64,000 nt of DNA from Luteolibacter pohnpeiensis (lineage in GTDB: Bacteria > Verrucomicrobiota > Verrucomicrobiia > Verrucomicrobiales > Akkermansiaceae): the NCBI RefSeq assembly GCF_016595435.1, contig NZ_JAENIJ010000004.1:62001-126000 (forward strand), in the 5' to 3' direction. This document shows positions 13,067 through 19,805 of this stretch, in pieces. The translations under genes and the position numbers were made by a program. Numbering within the stretch: the stretch's first letter is position 1; each line of letters starts with the position of its first letter. The notes under the pieces were generated by a model. The model was given only the letters and a program-made list of their open reading frames with translations, was not told the DNA's origin and did not search any database.

Positions 13067-13178
13067 ATTCGACACACGCGCTCACCGCAAGCAATAACCT
13101 CCATCATCTACGATTCTTGCCGGAAAATAATTCTTGTATTCGGCGCTCTTTCTCCTACTTCTTTGTCTAGTTTTACGA

Positions 13179-13769
13179 ATGAACCTTTCAAAGAAATCCG
13201 AATACGCCTTACGAGCTACGATCAATCTTGGCATCGCAGCCGAGGTTGGGCGTGGCACTGTTTCAGGCGCGGAATTGGCGGAGGCGAACCGTCTTCCCTT
13301 AAAATTCGTGGAACGCATTCTCCAGGAGCTGCGTGACGCGGGCATCGTTGAAACCATGCGCGGCAAGTTCGGCGGCTACGCTTTGGCAAAGCCCGCCGAT
13401 CAAATCGGCGTCGGGGAATTGGTCCGATTGATGGACGGTCGACTTGCCCCACTTTGTTGTGCGAGTGAGAACGCCTATCAGCCATGCACTTGCCCGGATG
13501 AAGATCACTGTGGGCTACGCATGGTCATGATCGATGTGCGCAATGCGATCGCCAACATTCTGGATCGGTATTCGATTGCTCAAGTCGTCGAGGTGACGCT
13601 GAGAAAAATGCGTCGCGATGGCATTGTTCCACCTTTTGCTCCAGCCAATAATTCCAGTGAGAAACCCGATTCTCCAAAACGTCGGGCCGATCCCGCTGAC
13701 GGCTTTTTGGCGGGCCTCTCGCAATTAGCAACTTCAAATCCGAACCAAGATGACATCGACAAACTCTGA
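13179..13769 (+). CDS. Rrf2-family transcriptional regulator (cysteine-rich)
   Basis: A 196-residue DNA-binding regulator. ATG at 13179 gives the family N-terminus MNLSKKSEYALRATINLG; longer in-frame starts add only a hydrophobic non-homologous stretch. The winged helix spans about residues 5-80 with recognition-helix region LPLKFVERILQEL and wing RGKFGGYALAKP. A Cys cluster LCCASENAYQPCTCPDEDHC follows at about residues 89-110; such clusters in Rrf2 proteins often hold an Fe-S centre, so redox or sulfur sensing is plausible. The C-terminal tail (about 150-196) is Pro/Ser-rich and looks disordered. Its stop overlaps the start of the DUF2292 gene by 20 bp, and the sulfate transport genes follow on the same strand, so control of sulfate uptake is the natural inference. 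Confidence 0.88.
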   Translation: MNLSKKSEYALRATINLGIAAEVGRGTVSGAELAEANRLPLKFVERILQELRDAGIVETMRGKFGGYALAKPADQIGVGELVRLMDGRLAPLCCASENAYQPCTCPDEDHCGLRMVMIDVRNAIANILDRYSIAQVVEVTLRKMRRDGIVPPFAPANNSSEKPDSPKRRADPADGFLAGLSQLATSNPNQDDIDKL

Positions 13770-13953
13770 TACTCCCCGCCCGGATCGCATCCAGGCGGAA
13801 TGGTTAGAGGTAGTTTGCACCAAGGTTGCGAATCTACGCTTTGGCTCTGTTCAAATCACGGTCCACGATGGACGAGTGACTCAAATCGAAAGCATCGAAA
13901 AAACCCGCTTTGTGGCAGATCGCGAAGAAGCCCCATCAAAACCGCGTTCCTAA
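13750..13953 (+). CDS. DUF2292/YezD-family small protein
   Basis: A 67-residue protein. The core 'VANLRFGSVQITVHDGRVTQ' followed by IESIEKTRF matches the DUF2292 (YezD) pattern: an amphipathic helix, a two-stranded hairpin with GSVxIxVxDGxVxQI, then EKxR. Family members are often found beside sulfate-assimilation genes (from memory); the biochemical role is unknown. The start lies 20 bp inside the Rrf2 gene, so the two are translationally linked. Downstream, 192 bp separate it from the porin start, holding the leader/terminator element. The N- and C-terminal tails of about 20 and 12 residues look flexible. Confidence 0.8.
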   Translation: MTSTNSDTPRPDRIQAEWLEVVCTKVANLRFGSVQITVHDGRVTQIESIEKTRFVADREEAPSKPRS

Positions 13954-14005: not shown

Positions 14006-14117
14006 CTGTTAGCAAGACCGACCGGACAACCGGAGGAAATCAACAGGAGATGTAGAGACACGCCACGTGACTCTAACAGCTCTTCGATTTTCCCCGCTGT
14101 CTGGTCGGTCTTTTTTT
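14006..14117 (+). promoter_or_regulatory. Structured leader with intrinsic terminator (candidate attenuator) before the sulfate porin
   Basis: GACCGACCGGAC (14016-14027) pairs with GTCTGGTCGGTC (14099-14110), 12 bp with one G-U, and is followed directly by seven T (14111-14117). Inside, GGAGGAAATC (14032-14041) can pair with GATTTTCCCC (14086-14095) with one mismatch and one G-U. A third hairpin spans 14051-14079 around loop CCA. Upstream CTGTTAG (14006-14012) is perfectly complementary to CTAACAG (14073-14079). That pairing would either form a pseudoknot with the terminator stem or compete with the inner hairpin. Only 28 nt separate the T-run from the porin ATG at 14146, so porin mRNA very probably starts upstream and reads through this element. 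I recognise no known riboswitch consensus. It could instead simply terminate the Rrf2-DUF2292 transcript. Confidence 0.65.
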
Positions 14118-14145: not shown

Positions 14146-15309
14146 ATGACATCCATTTCTCCTACCAAAGCAACACCTCATCTTGCTCTCGCCTTGGGAG
14201 CCATTCTACTGACGCCGGATCTGACACTGGCGGATGAATCTTCTTTTGACGACTTATGGAAACTCGCAACTCTCTATCAGAATCCCAATAACCCGTATCT
14301 GGAACAATTCAAGTTACGTGGCCGCTACCAGGGGCAATACACGCACGTAGACTCGGACCGGGGTGAGTCATCAGACTGGGAAGACAGACGTTCCAGATTT
14401 GGCTTCGACGCCTTGATGTTGGAGCGAAAAATCGAATTACGTTTGGACTTCCAAAGCAATGACGGCTTCCAGGATTTCTACGATGGTTTGGTAGACGCCT
14501 ATATCCGCTACAAGCCAAATGGATCGACTGCAATCACCCTTGGAAAAACCAAACCACTCATCGGTCAATATGACTGGCTTGAGTCGACTAACACGCAGCC
14601 AACCTTTGAGCGTTCTCAAATTTTCAACCAGCTCAACATCAATCGAGCCACAGCTTTTACGATCGAAGGCTCGGCTCAACCATTCACATGGCGTTCAGGA
14701 ATCTATTCAAACTCAACCCCGGCTACCACGGGTGGCACAGGTTCATGGGGAGACGGGGAATTCGGCAACCTCGATGGAGGGTATTCTTACTCATTCGGGA
14801 TCGGATACGATTTCAAGGAACAACTCGGAACCGAAAAAGCCGATGCTCGCTTGGATTGGCTACACAGCGAACGCAGAGAAGGTGATCGGGTACTTGGAAG
14901 ATATGATGATATTATCGCGTCAACCTTCTGGATTAAACAGGGATCCGTAGCGGTCGTATTTGAAGACTATTACGCCACAGGCGGGAATGATGAAGACAGT
15001 GACGTTTTTGGATTTTTCATCCAAACCATGTATGATTTTGTTCCTGACAAATTTCAGCTTGTAGGTCGCTATTCGTTTTCAGCGAGCCGTGGTCCGAACG
15101 GAATTCGTCCTCAAGGCAGATATGAAAGCACGGCTGAAGCCATGCGCGGCGATACCTATCAGTCGGTTTACCTGGGCGGCCAGTATTTCATCCACGGCGA
15201 TAAGTTAAAACTCCTTATCGGTGCCGAATATGCAGCTCTCGGCCAAAATAGCCACTCCGATCGCTACAACGGATTCGATCTCCTTGGCGGTCTTCGCTTT
15301 TCATTTTAA
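14146..15309 (+). CDS. OprO/OprP-like outer-membrane porin of the sulfate operon
   Basis: A 387-residue outer-membrane beta-barrel protein. ATG at 14146 ([18 protein letters not shown]) gives a signal peptide cut near ADESS; the TTG at 14116 lies in the terminator T-run and was rejected. The body is made of alternating amphipathic strands ([56 protein letters not shown]) and ends in GGLRFSF, with the terminal Phe required for barrel insertion. The strand pattern and the LGKxKP element resemble the phosphate-selective porin O/P family. Because a sulfate-binding lipoprotein follows 28 bp later, the likely cargo is sulfate or another oxyanion (inference). It is the first structural gene after the candidate attenuator. 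Confidence 0.8.
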
Positions 15310-15337: not shown

Positions 15338-16351
15338 ATGAAACCACATCAAATCATCATTACGCTCCTATCACTTTCCATACTCATCACGTCTTGCGGA
15401 AAAAGCAAACAGAGTGGTAAAACCATCAAAATCCTGAATGTTTCCTACGATCCAACCCGTGAATTTTATGTAGAGATTAACGCCGCATTCCAGAAAAAGT
15501 GGGATGCCGAACATGGGAAACATCTCGAAATCGAGCAATCTCATGGAGGCTCAGGGAAGCAGTCACGATCGGTGATTGATGGATTGGAAGCAGACGTGGT
15601 CACCCTGGCGCTTGCTGGAGATATTGACGCAATTCACCAGCAAACCAACCGTTTACCGGAAAACTGGCAGACAAGACTGCCTTACAACAGTTCCCCCTAT
15701 ACCTCGACTATCGTTTTCGTGGTTCGGAAAGGTAATCCAAAGGCGATCAAGGACTGGAGTGATCTAACAACAAAGGGACTTCAGGTAATCACCCCCAACC
15801 CAAAAACATCTGGAGGCGCTCGCTGGAACTATCTCGCGGCGTGGACATGGGCGGCAAGAAATTATGCCGGTGATCAAACTCGAATACTCGATTACATGAA
15901 CCGATTGTTCAAAAATGTTCCTGTTCTGGATACTGGCGCAAGAGGTTCGACTACGACATTCGCACAACGCGGCATTGGTGATGTCTTACTCTCCTGGGAG
16001 AACGAAGCATATTTGATTGAGAAAGAATTCCCCGGGCAAACACAAATCGTTTACCCGTCCATCAGCATCCTTGCGGAACCCCCTGTGGCGCTCGTTGATA
16101 AAAACGCAGAGAAACATGGAACACGCGAAGTTGCAGAAGCTTATTTGAAATTTCTCTACACCGACGAAGCCCAAGATCTCGCAGGAAAGCATTTCTACCG
16201 CCCTCGCAACGAAGAAATCGGCAAACGTTATCTCACGACATTACCTAGTATTCCGCTCGTAACAATCGACGAAGAATTTGGCGGATGGAAGAAAGCACAG
16301 AAAATTCATTTCGACGACGGCGGCACTTTCGATCGCATCTATCAACCTTAA
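15338..16351 (+). CDS. sbp: Sulfate/thiosulfate-binding lipoprotein
   Basis: A 337-residue substrate-binding protein for the sulfate ABC importer. ATG at 15338 ([15 protein letters not shown]) precedes a lipobox ILITSC with Cys at about residue 20, so it is membrane-tethered. The enterobacterial Sbp and CysP are soluble periplasmic proteins. Conserved Sbp segments are present: [83 protein letters not shown] and, near the C-terminus, IDEEFGGW. The sulfate-contacting Ser/Gly-rich loop SHGGSGKQ is intact. It follows the porin by 28 bp and precedes the DNA-binding/EIIA gene by 15 bp. Confidence 0.95.
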
Positions 16352-16366
16352 TGCATCTCCATCATC

Positions 16367-17131
16367 ATGAAACTCGATAGTATCCCAGAATTCTTAAAAT
16401 CCGAATATTTAACCATTGGCCTACTCGCGGCAAACTTAGGCTGGTCCGTACGGTTCATTGAAGGACTGGTTCGTGGAGAGCGTTTACCCGGGCTCGAAAT
16501 CAACGGCGCATGGCACTTCAGACGTGACGACGTCATCGATTGGTTGGAGCAGAAAATTCAGACACTCGATGCAAATCGCGTCATCCAATTGGAACGGAGA
16601 ATCGAATCCTCTCTGGCTTCCGAAGGAATATATCAAAGTCCGCTAACCCTTGACCGGATCGCGTCAAGGCTCCCTGATGAAGGCATTGAACTGGATGCAC
16701 CGATCCATACCAAAAATGAAGTTATCCATGCATTGACAGGACTGGCAGAGAGAACTGGATTGTTGTTTGATCGCGACTATCTACTAGCCGCACTTCTGGA
16801 TCGTGAAAGTCTATGCTCTACCGCGATGCCTGGTGGAGTCGCCCTTTGCCATCCGAGACGTCCCATCCCCACCGCCATCAGCACCCAGTTCATGTGTTTC
16901 TTACGAACGGCAAACCCTGTTCCGTTCGGTTCTGATGATGAGCTTACTGATGGCACAACCATCTTCTTTTTACTCTGCGCACCAGATGATCGCTCGCATC
17001 TTTATGGACTGGCGAGAATCGCCCGCATGCTCCATCACGGTATCCTCAGTGATCTGCGATCCGCAAAGAACAAGGAAGAACTGAAAGCAGTGATCGCCCA
17101 AACAGAGAATGAAATTCATATCTCACCTTGA
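16367..17131 (+). CDS. HTH (excisionase-like) + PTS EIIA-Ntr fusion protein inside the sulfate operon
   Basis: A 254-residue two-domain protein. Residues about 14-64 ([20 protein letters not shown], then [15 protein letters not shown]) are a MerR/excisionase-type helix-turn-helix of the HTH_17 kind. Residues about 93-250 resemble the PtsN/EIIA-Ntr (PTS_EIIA type 2) fold: [17 protein letters not shown], a '[17 protein letters not shown]' site with His162 at the place of the phospho-accepting His of PtsN, then a [12 protein letters not shown] strand and [12 protein letters not shown] helix, all in family order. It lies 15 bp after sbp and 5 bp before cysT, so it is almost certainly co-transcribed with the transporter. 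The role is inferred: it could respond to phospho-HPr/NPr and regulate or gate sulfate uptake. No EI or HPr gene is in the window. Confidence 0.82.
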
Positions 17132-17136
17132 TTGAT

Positions 17137-17955
17137 ATGCCAAAACGACGAGTCATACCCGGATTTGGTCTCACATTGGGATTCACGATCAGCTATTTAA
17201 GTCTCATCATCCTGATACCTCTTGCAGCGTTGTTCATCAAGGCAGCGGGGCTCAGCTGGTCCGAATGGATAGAGATTCTGGGCTCTCGAAGAGTCATTGC
17301 AGCGGCGGAACTCACGTTTGGCGCGAGTTTCGCTGCTGCAATCATCAGCACCTTGTTCGGGCTGCTGGTCACCTGGGTTCTGGTTCGCTACCGATTCCCT
17401 GGCCGAAGGCTGTTAGATGCAATGGTCGACCTACCTTTTGCGCTACCAACCGCAGTGGCCGGCATCACTCTAACAACCATCTATGCGCCGAACGGCTGGA
17501 TCGGCGAGTTCCTCGGCCACTGGGGAATCCGATCTTCTTATTCTCCGCTGGGTGTAGTCATCGCGCTAACCTTTATCGGTTTCCCTTTCGTTGTGCGTAC
17601 GTTGCAGCCCGTGATGGATGAGCTCGGCAAAGAAATTGAAGAAGCCGCCGCTACATTAGGCGCGAATCGATGGATCATTTTCTACCGTGTCATCTTGCCA
17701 CTGCTACTGCCTGCTCTCACCACCGGGTTCACATTGGCCTTTGCGCGTGCGATTGGAGAATATGGATCCGTTATTTTCATCTCCGGAAATCTTCCGATGA
17801 AAACCGAGATCCTTCCGCTCTTGATCGTATCTCAACTTGAGCAGCTTAAATACTCTGCGGCTGCGGTGATCGCCAGCAGCATGCTCATCATCTCCTTCCT
17901 CCTTCTTTTTCTCATCAACCTACTTCAACACCAACTCAATTGGCAAAAGCATTAG
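17137..17955 (+). CDS. cysT: Sulfate ABC transporter permease CysT
   Basis: Inner-membrane permease, one half of the sulfate channel. ATG at 17137 ([16 protein letters not shown]) gives 272 residues; a TTG at 17128 overlapping the previous stop would add three. Six transmembrane segments are visible, among them [18 protein letters not shown] and [18 protein letters not shown]. The cytoplasmic EAA loop [20 protein letters not shown] docks the ATPase. The motif [16 protein letters not shown] is typical of CysT/CysW. Spacings of 5 bp upstream and 4 bp downstream place it in a tight operon with the EIIA fusion gene and cysW. Confidence 0.95.
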
Positions 17956-17959
17956 CTTC

Positions 17960-18808
17960 ATGAAGGGAAATTCAGTCACAAGTGAAAGTCACGCTGTTAG
18001 ATTTATCCTAATCACGTGCACGATGTGCTTTCTCGCACTGTTTCTTTTTCTTCCGCTGGCCGCAGTATTTGCTGAGGCGTTACGGAAAGGATGGGAACTC
18101 TTTTTCGCGTCACTGCACGAGGAAGTGGCGTTGTCTGCGATCAAACTGACGCTGATCACAGCTGCGATATCAGTCATTGCAAATACCATTTTCGGAGTTT
18201 CCGCATCCTGGTTGATCACCAAATTCAGCTTTCGTGGGCGCTCGCTTCTGCTGACACTGATTGATCTCCCATTTGCCGTTTCGCCGATCATTGCGGGTCT
18301 GGTATGGATCTTCTTGTTTGGTTCCAAAGGTTGGTTCGGCCCATGGCTCACGGAACACCAGATTCAAATCATCTTCGCGCTGCCTGGCATCATCATCGCC
18401 ACACTTTTTGTCACCTTTCCTTTTGTGGCGAGGGAATTGATCCCTCTGATGGAATCTCAAAGCAATGATCAAGAAGAAGCAGCGATCACATTAGGAGCTA
18501 GCGGGTGGCAGGTTTTCTTACGGGTGACACTCCCTAACATCAAATGGGGCCTACTCTATGGAATCCTGCTCTGCAACGCTCGCGCGATGGGCGAATTCGG
18601 TGCTGTGTCGGTGGTTTCCGGTCACATTCGCGGTAAGACCAATACGCTGCCACTTCACATTGAGGTGCTCTATAACGAATATCAATTTAGCGCCGCGTTC
18701 GCATGCGCGACCCTTCTGGCTCTTTTGGCACTGGTCACACTGGGACTTAAATCACTCGTCGAAGGTATTCAAAAATCCGAAACCAAAGATCGGAATCCAT
18801 TACATTAA
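17960..18808 (+). CDS. cysW: Sulfate ABC transporter permease CysW
   Basis: A 282-residue second permease of the sulfate importer. ATG at 17960. The N-terminal helix [19 protein letters not shown] is followed by further membrane segments. [20 protein letters not shown] is the CysW-type motif, and the EAA loop reads [19 protein letters not shown]. The segment [20 protein letters not shown] is the well-conserved CysW signature near the C-terminal third. It follows cysT by 4 bp and precedes cysA by 4 bp. Confidence 0.95.
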
Positions 18809-18812
18809 CCTC

Positions 18813-19805
18813 ATGTCCATTTCCATACATTCCATCCATAAGCACTTCGGCAGCTACTCAGCTCTTGAAGACATCTCCTTGGAGATACCTAATGGATCTC
18901 TAACCGCTCTACTCGGACCTTCAGGATCTGGCAAAACCACTCTGCTACGCATCGTAGCGGGCCTGGAATTTCCTGATGAAGGAGCCGGGATCATTCGATT
19001 TCATGGCCAGAATGTAAGCAATATCCCTGTGGTAAAGCGGGGTGTTGGATTCGTATTCCAACATTATGCCCTATTCCGTCACATGACTGTGGCGCAAAAT
19101 ATTGCATTCGGCCTAACCGTTTTACCCAAAAAACACCGACCATCGCGTGGAGAAATTAGAAGCCGCGTCAACGAACTGTTAGATTTAGTCAAACTCGAAG
19201 GACTCGCGAAACGTCGCCCGGACCAATTATCAGGCGGACAACGCCAGAGGGTCGCACTGGCACGTGCACTTGCCATTCGCCCGAAAGTGCTTTTGTTGGA
19301 CGAACCTTTCGGAGCTTTGGATGCTCAAGTCAGAAAGGAACTGCGTCGCTGGCTTCGGCAGTTTCATGATGAGATCGGCCTCACCACACTTTTCGTAACG
19401 CATGACCAGGAGGAAGCTCTTGAGTTAGCGGATCAAGTCGTCGTCATGCGAAACGCTAGAATCGAGCAAGTTGGAAAACCTCAAGACGTCTACGACCATC
19501 CTCGTAGCCCGTTTGTTTATGAATTTCTGGGCAACGTAAACAAAGTCCAGAGGCATGGAAGCGAGCCGCAATACGTTCGCCCCCATGAAATCGAAGTCCT
19601 GTTTGCTGCGGAGTATGAGCCAGCAACCGATCAATTAGCTCGAGTCACCCATCTATTCTCCGCTGGCCCAGTAGCCTCATTGACCGTGCGACTGCCGGAC
19701 GGTTATTTTCTGGATGTTCAACTTTCCAGAAAGCAGCTGGATGAACTGGCTCTAGGAATTGGCGATGAGGTCGCAGTTAGGATGAGGATACATGGAGCGG
19801 CGTGA
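18813..19805 (+). CDS. cysA: Sulfate ABC transporter ATP-binding protein CysA
   Basis: A 330-residue ATPase that powers sulfate import. ATG at 18813 ([20 protein letters not shown]) sits 4 bp after cysW; the frame stays open further upstream but only as an out-of-frame reading of cysW. It has Walker [11 protein letters not shown]-loop [13 protein letters not shown], signature [15 protein letters not shown], Walker [14 protein letters not shown] and switch His in [10 protein letters not shown]. The C-terminal part from about residue 240 ([11 protein letters not shown]) is the TOBE/regulatory domain of CysA/PotA-type ATPases. It is the last gene of the operon; no clear terminator was seen after it. 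Confidence 0.96.

Follow-up and report, generated by a model that had tools for sequence, protein, structure and literature searches.

A helix-turn-helix–EIIA fusion protein in the sulfate-transport operon of Luteolibacter pohnpeiensis and its sulfur-linked relatives in the Akkermansiaceae

The window, meaning the whole 64,000-nucleotide stretch of Luteolibacter pohnpeiensis DNA that was analysed (contig NZ_JAENIJ010000004.1, positions 62,001 to 126,000), contains a sulfate ABC transport operon whose genes lie in the order Rrf2, DUF2292, porin, Sbp, helix-turn-helix (HTH)-EIIA fusion, CysT, CysW and CysA. The features of this region, in window coordinates, are:

13141..13168, + strand, conserved promoter/operator-like motif upstream of Rrf2, common to orphan HTH-EIIA genes (motif matrix)
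13179..13769, + strand, Rrf2 family regulator, IscR/RirA/CymR-like (Pfam Rrf2 E=5e-32; NCBIfam)
13750..13953, + strand, DUF2292 (YezD-like) small protein, 67 aa (PF10055, 54 bits, cut-off 22)
14008..14117, + strand, long terminator-like leader hairpin between DUF2292 and porin (-53.9 kcal/mol, z -7.65)
14146..15309, + strand, outer-membrane porin, Porin_O_P (Pfam E=1.2e-9)
15338..16351, + strand, Sbp, sulfate-binding protein (NF008022 454.8 bits and TIGR00971 440.7 bits, over the subfamily cut-offs)
16367..17131, + strand, HTH-EIIA fusion protein, 254 aa, ATG start (ORF, Pfam, predicted structure)
16406..16558, + strand, MerR/excisionase-type helix-turn-helix with wing (HTH_17), codons 14-64 (Pfam, predicted structure)
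16676..17101, + strand, PTS_EIIA_2 domain, codons 104-245 (Pfam, E=2.2e-23)
16847..16852, + strand, Cys161-His162, putative phospho-acceptor His and clade-specific Cys, codons 161-162 (alignment)
17137..17955, + strand, CysT permease (TIGR02139 388.8 bits, equivalog cut-off 246.1)
17960..18808, + strand, CysW permease (TIGR02140 394.8 bits, equivalog cut-off 329.1)
18813..19805, + strand, CysA ATPase (TIGR00968 372.7 bits, sulfate ATP-binding subfamily cut-off 342.75)

The CysA protein scores below the PRK10851 equivalog cut-off (387.7 versus 502), and the Rrf2 regulator has a cluster of Cys residues at positions 93, 94, 103, 105 and 111. The original prediction, made from the DNA letters, placed a single ORF with an HTH and an EIIA domain between sbp and cysT, and the ORF, its Pfam matches and the profiles of its neighbours confirm this arrangement; the 5-15 bp gaps that it described are also present, 15 bp separating the fusion gene from Sbp and 5 bp separating it from the start codon of CysT (ATG at 17137).

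The C-terminal half of the fusion belongs to the PTS_EIIA_2 family (PF00359; 83.3 bits against a Pfam cut-off of 27, residues 104-245). The HTH_17 match (PF12728, residues 14-63, E=1.2e-4) reaches 22.7 bits, below its cut-off of 27, as it does in all six members of the same clade that were scanned, which counts against a DNA-regulator reading; among more distant homologs HTH_17 is over the cut-off (47.3 bits in L038 and 33.1 bits in L044). These two domains are all that Pfam finds in the fusion at E ≤ 1, and no PRD domain is among them. An AlphaFold2 model built with 21 homologs (pLDDT 84.2, pTM 0.80) predicts an EIIA fold, the structural check that had been proposed: its EIIA half resembles PtsN structures (Foldseek best E 5e-8), and VIA-align, whose matches are to the EIIA half and not to the HTH, superimposes it on PtsN 3urr_A with Z 18.0 and rmsd 2.0 over 149 residues. 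The predicted fold bears out the description of this domain as PtsN-like; the fusion's score with the PtsN equivalog TIGR01419 is far below the NCBIfam cut-off (46.9 versus 138.7 bits). In the model of the whole protein the HTH consists of helices 17-24 and 28-38 and strands 43-45 and 48-52. A model of the HTH alone is of modest confidence (pLDDT 69.7), and its top Foldseek matches (RacA-DNA, SoxR-DNA, NmlR-DNA, RdfS excisionase and BldC-DNA) are weak, with a best E of 0.015 and none at E ≤ 0.001.

His162 aligns with the active-site histidine region of PtsN, and the expectation that this putative phospho-acceptor would be conserved holds in every homolog aligned: His162, Arg146 and Arg164 are invariant in 26 of 26 (17 members of an Akkermansiaceae clade and 9 distant HTH-EIIA proteins). 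The residue that precedes the histidine varies. It is Cys in 16 of the 17 clade members (the exception, in genome G186, has Leu), Pro in seven and Leu in two of the nine distant proteins (Cys in none), and Pro in all 31 distinct ordinary EIIA proteins read from relatives, which include both other EIIAs of the same genome; the 31 come from 42 matches and are far fewer than all EIIA genes. A second cysteine, Cys150, is conserved in 16 of 17 clade members and 9 of 9 distant relatives. Replacement of Pro by Cys before His162 could impair phosphotransfer.

The remaining components of a phosphorelay were sought in the genome assembly of the same organism (4.67 Mb, 254 contigs, 98.8% complete). It has one EI gene with three PEP-utiliser domains and the SHTAI active-site motif, one HPr gene (GIHARP motif) directly upstream of EI, one HprK gene and three EIIA_2 genes, and a search with PF02378 found no EIIC of that family. 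With EI, HPr and HprK at hand and no PF02378 EIIC, the relay is probably regulatory. A second EIIA gene of this genome (L095:6516-6914) directly precedes an ORF resembling a ClC chloride channel (L095:6925-8685; named from its letters).

The distribution of the fusion was determined in 260 genomes of the GTDB family Akkermansiaceae, with presence of the fusion defined by E ≤ 1e-15 and that of CysT by a score over its cut-off. The fusion is present in 16 of these genomes and CysT in 55, and all 16 fusion genomes carry CysT (hypergeometric 2e-12, a count that ignores kinship). The other 39 CysT genomes are without the fusion, which is thus an accessory module, and the idea that sulfate operons always include it is ruled out. 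The 16 genomes yield 17 clade proteins that could be placed (two are in G177), and 12 of these lie within or adjoin a cysT-containing sulfate operon (the window, L028, L029, L030 with two copies, L033, L034, L035, L037, L076, L077 and L111), usually adjoining sbp and preceding cysT. The predicted association of close orthologs with sulfate transport is thus upheld, both by these 12 of 17 positions and by the presence of CysT in 16 of 16 genomes. Several of these operons have features of their own. In L030 (5113-7732) a tandem duplication gives the order sbp-EIIA-sbp-EIIA-cysT within one operon, and one of the two EIIA copies has Ser in place of Cys150. In L030, L033, L034 and L035 the profile match of CysT is broken in two by an insertion of ∼22 residues, and CysW has an insertion too; such split CysT proteins occur in 13 of the 55 CysT genomes. 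The sulfate operon of G016 includes a gene for a cysK-like PLP enzyme (L034:3566-4531; PF00291 235 bits) between Rrf2 and the porin.

The other five clade members are orphans with respect to such operons, and three of them have sulfur genes or DUF2292 nearby. The G009 copy (L075) adjoins Sbp only, and the cysT gene of that genome is on a different contig. The G169 copy (L113) lies 54 bp upstream of cysK (TIGR01139 446 bits, over the cut-off), with ahcY and metK farther upstream of it on the same strand. In G028 (L074/L031) a gene for DUF2292 (60.1 bits) directly precedes the fusion gene; a divergently oriented gene for a cysteine desulfurase (SufS TIGR01979 526 bits, over the cut-off) lies 0.9 kb away, and metY lies 4 kb away with an autotransporter-repeat ORF in between. 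The best model for this desulfurase is family 2A encapsulin cargo (756 bits, below its cut-off of 800); passages of one study describe family 2A encapsulins as adjoining sulfur genes and as induced by sulfate starvation in Synechococcus (PMC8049743). The G186 copy (L032/L114) has no adjoining sulfur gene, and the G153 copy (L036/L112), which adjoins recA close to the end of a contig, lacks sulfur neighbours. The proposal that this is a dedicated sulfate version of PtsN is partly supported by the sulfur link of its close orthologs, but that link is wider than transport, as orphan copies accompany cysK, ahcY and metK or DUF2292.

A conserved promoter/operator-like motif upstream of Rrf2 connects some of these orphans with the operons. 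The motif matrix was made from 20 of 22 Rrf2 upstream regions (the two omitted were one that lacked an anchor and one that was too short), and its consensus is TTAATnCnTACnnnTnnnTC; three of its training rows score low (4.5, 7.3 and 12.1). When the 400 bp upstream of each of the five orphan copies were scanned, with 200 shuffles as control, G028 (17.9), G169 (18.3) and G186 (20.9) each scored above 200 of 200 shuffles; the G153 match, on the opposite strand, reached 11.5, a level that the top unrelated control regions (12.0 and 11.5) attain as well, and G009 had no motif in the 400 bp scanned (0.3). A score of at least 15 is reached by 18 of the 254 upstream regions taken from 20 loci, and the best other region scores 12.0. 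Thirteen of the 18 are training sites or regions that share intergenic space with one, and the other five lie upstream of HTH-EIIA genes or operons: G186 (twice, by way of a divergent gene), G169, G028 and the porin-sbp-fusion operon of G018. Thus, the G028, G169 and G186 orphans appear to be part of the same regulon as the sulfate operons. Operons that lack the fusion carry the motif too, so that it is more likely a site for Rrf2, or a plain promoter, than the fusion's own operator, a role that was rejected for it on these grounds; no candidate operator for the fusion was identified in the regions scanned.

The sulfate operons also have leader RNA-like elements. The long hairpin between DUF2292 and the porin contains an inner CCGG-ANNA-CCGG motif, and a similar region is found in L028, L035, L077, L078, L079 and L086; the hairpin is alike whether or not a sulfate operon carries the fusion, and such elements are ruled out as an explanation of the fusion for that reason. 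A search of the leader against Rfam gave no match at the gathering threshold; under permissive settings the window again had no match, and L078 had a single one, to a snoRNA and chance-like. No covariation is claimed for element 1, because the first RNA-element regular expression caught few copies. A different conserved element of ∼45 nt (L078:7277-7330 and its equivalents, absent from the window) ends just 5′ of the start codon of the porin or sbp gene. Across an alignment of 15 copies, 86.7% of cells pair in a nested hairpin that shows four two-sided pair changes versus a shuffle mean of 0.8, and a rival fold with a pseudoknot is nearly equal (85.1%). A pattern search found 36 matches in 145 genomes versus 8 for the reversed control; of the 30 loci read, eight are at the operon, where the ATG invariably follows at a distance of 39-41 nt, and the other 22 have no operon gene nearby. 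This element is a candidate cis-regulatory RNA with no Rfam family.

The fusion architecture itself is not new: nine distant relatives in Planctomycetota, Kiritimatiellota, Lentisphaerota and other Verrucomicrobiota have the same HTH-EIIA architecture, away from sulfate-transport genes. At the loci of these nine (L038-L046) no matches to sulfate-operon proteins were found. What is new here is a well-supported Akkermansiaceae clade of HTH-EIIA proteins tied to sulfur. In the tree the 17 clade members form one group separate from the nine distant proteins (support 100/99), and both the sulfate-operon and the orphan copies lie inside it. On a tree of CysT from 25 operons (11 with and 14 without the fusion, plus 3 outgroups), presence of the fusion changes at least seven times at the operon level, with 13 of the 25 inner forks open. 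Within the sulfur clade the HTH is the better conserved half (mean pairwise identity 66.5%, versus 59.8% for EIIA), which would be expected of proteins that all recognise similar DNA; among the nine distant relatives the order is reversed (46.5% versus 58.2%).

Our preferred interpretation, with a probability of roughly one half, is that the fusion regulates transcription of the sulfur regulon under the control of the PEP phosphorelay, and that it matches sulfur supply to carbon and energy. The relay up to HPr and the membership of the fusion in the sulfur regulon rest on genome and neighbourhood searches and on the shared promoter motif. A phosphoryl group would pass from PEP through EI and HPr to His162 of the EIIA domain, and phosphorylation of His162 would alter how the attached winged-helix domain acts on the promoters of the sulfur regulon, to which it would bind. 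Uptake of sulfate and supply of cysteine might then follow PEP (carbon and energy) status, in whichever direction the control runs, and this control would act alongside that by the Rrf2 repressor. In this reading the protein would be phosphorylatable by the PTS and perhaps thiol-gated as well.

The position of the gene inside a transporter operon, usually adjoining sbp and 5′ of cysT, would also suit an EIIA domain that acts post-translationally on the sulfate ABC transporter, its HTH serving for autoregulation or placement only. By analogy, a study of Rhizobium leguminosarum reports post-translational inactivation of ABC transport by PTS-Ntr (PMC3665714), and, as noted above, another EIIA gene of the same genome lies just 5′ of the ClC-like ORF. 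This explanation is nonetheless unlikely: orphan copies accompany cysK or DUF2292 without transporter subunits, and the HTH is the more conserved half. That the fusion is a generic HTH-EIIA passenger in the operon, with no sulfur-specific role, would agree with the occurrence of the architecture outside sulfate loci in the nine distant relatives, with the 39 of 55 CysT genomes that manage without it and with the minimum of seven state changes on the CysT tree; it seems quite improbable in view of the CysT found in all 16 fusion genomes, the independent sulfur associations and the promoter motif common to orphan copies.

The cysteine beside the histidine raises a further alternative, in which the EIIA domain has been repurposed as a thiol sensor: Cys161, with Cys150, would read cysteine, sulfide, persulfide or redox state, would gate or replace phosphorylation of His162, and would so control the HTH. 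The residue counts given above, with Cys161 nearly universal in the clade and absent from the distant HTH-EIIA proteins, Pro in every ordinary EIIA counted and Cys150 conserved as well, are those that such a sensor might leave, and the sole member that lacks Cys161 (G186) is one of the two with no adjoining sulfur gene. The correlation is loose, however, since G153 retains the Cys without sulfur neighbours; moreover, one ancestral change passed on through the clade would produce an equal count, and Arg146 and His162 are invariant as in a working phospho-acceptor. This proposal is unlikely. A combined version, that a Cys beside the phospho-His makes phosphorylation dependent on thiol or sulfide, so that one site reads both PEP and reduced sulfur and sets the sulfur regulon as a one-protein carbon-sulfur integrator, is rather unlikely.

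Comparison with known systems places the regulator reading favoured here among several partial parallels. The fusion resembles EIIA-Ntr/PtsN in its EIIA fold (Z 18), its active-site His and Arg, and the presence of EI and HPr in a genome with no PF02378 sugar permease, but it differs from PtsN in its added HTH, in having Cys and not Pro before the His, and in its link to sulfur genes. The HTH_17 plus EIIA proteins of the PVC superphylum (L038-L046) share its two-domain architecture and its ...HPR signature, but none of them lies near sulfate-transport genes, and the residue ahead of their His is Pro or Leu. The Chlamydia annotation "PTS IIA protein + HTH" presumably belongs among these PVC proteins, and a paper on Chlamydia pneumoniae (PMC5723314) is said to mention both "PTS IIA protein" and "HTH DNA-binding". 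MtlR is a regulator of the PRD type, controlled by the PTS and with EIIA/EIIB-like domains. Other PRD-type regulators with such domains, for example Mga, are described in parts of PMC11537053 as DNA-binding regulators under PTS phosphorylation control, as the fusion may be by analogy; the fusion differs from them in having no PRD by Pfam, a single HTH and EIIA, and a sulfur context. Euo of the Chlamydiae is an example from PVC bacteria of an excisionase-type winged HTH employed as a transcription factor, according to portions of PMC4989314, in which neither an EIIA domain nor a sulfur link is mentioned for Euo.

No account of an EIIA-HTH fusion in sulfate operons was found in searches of open-licence PubMed Central. 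The known links of PTS-Ntr are mainly to nitrogen, potassium and carbon. The words "sulfate", "sulfur", "DNA-binding" and "ABC transport" are absent from the main text of a 2026 review (PMC13104625). The PTS-Ntr of R. leguminosarum controls ABC transporters through a standalone PtsN with broad action, as far as sections of PMC3665714 describe it, whereas the fusion is dedicated and lies in one operon. If there is a branch dedicated to sulfur, gained or lost several times together with sulfate operons, it would show how a phosphorelay becomes connected to a new nutrient; a direct single-residue test is offered by Cys161-His162, the pair that sets this clade apart from PtsN.
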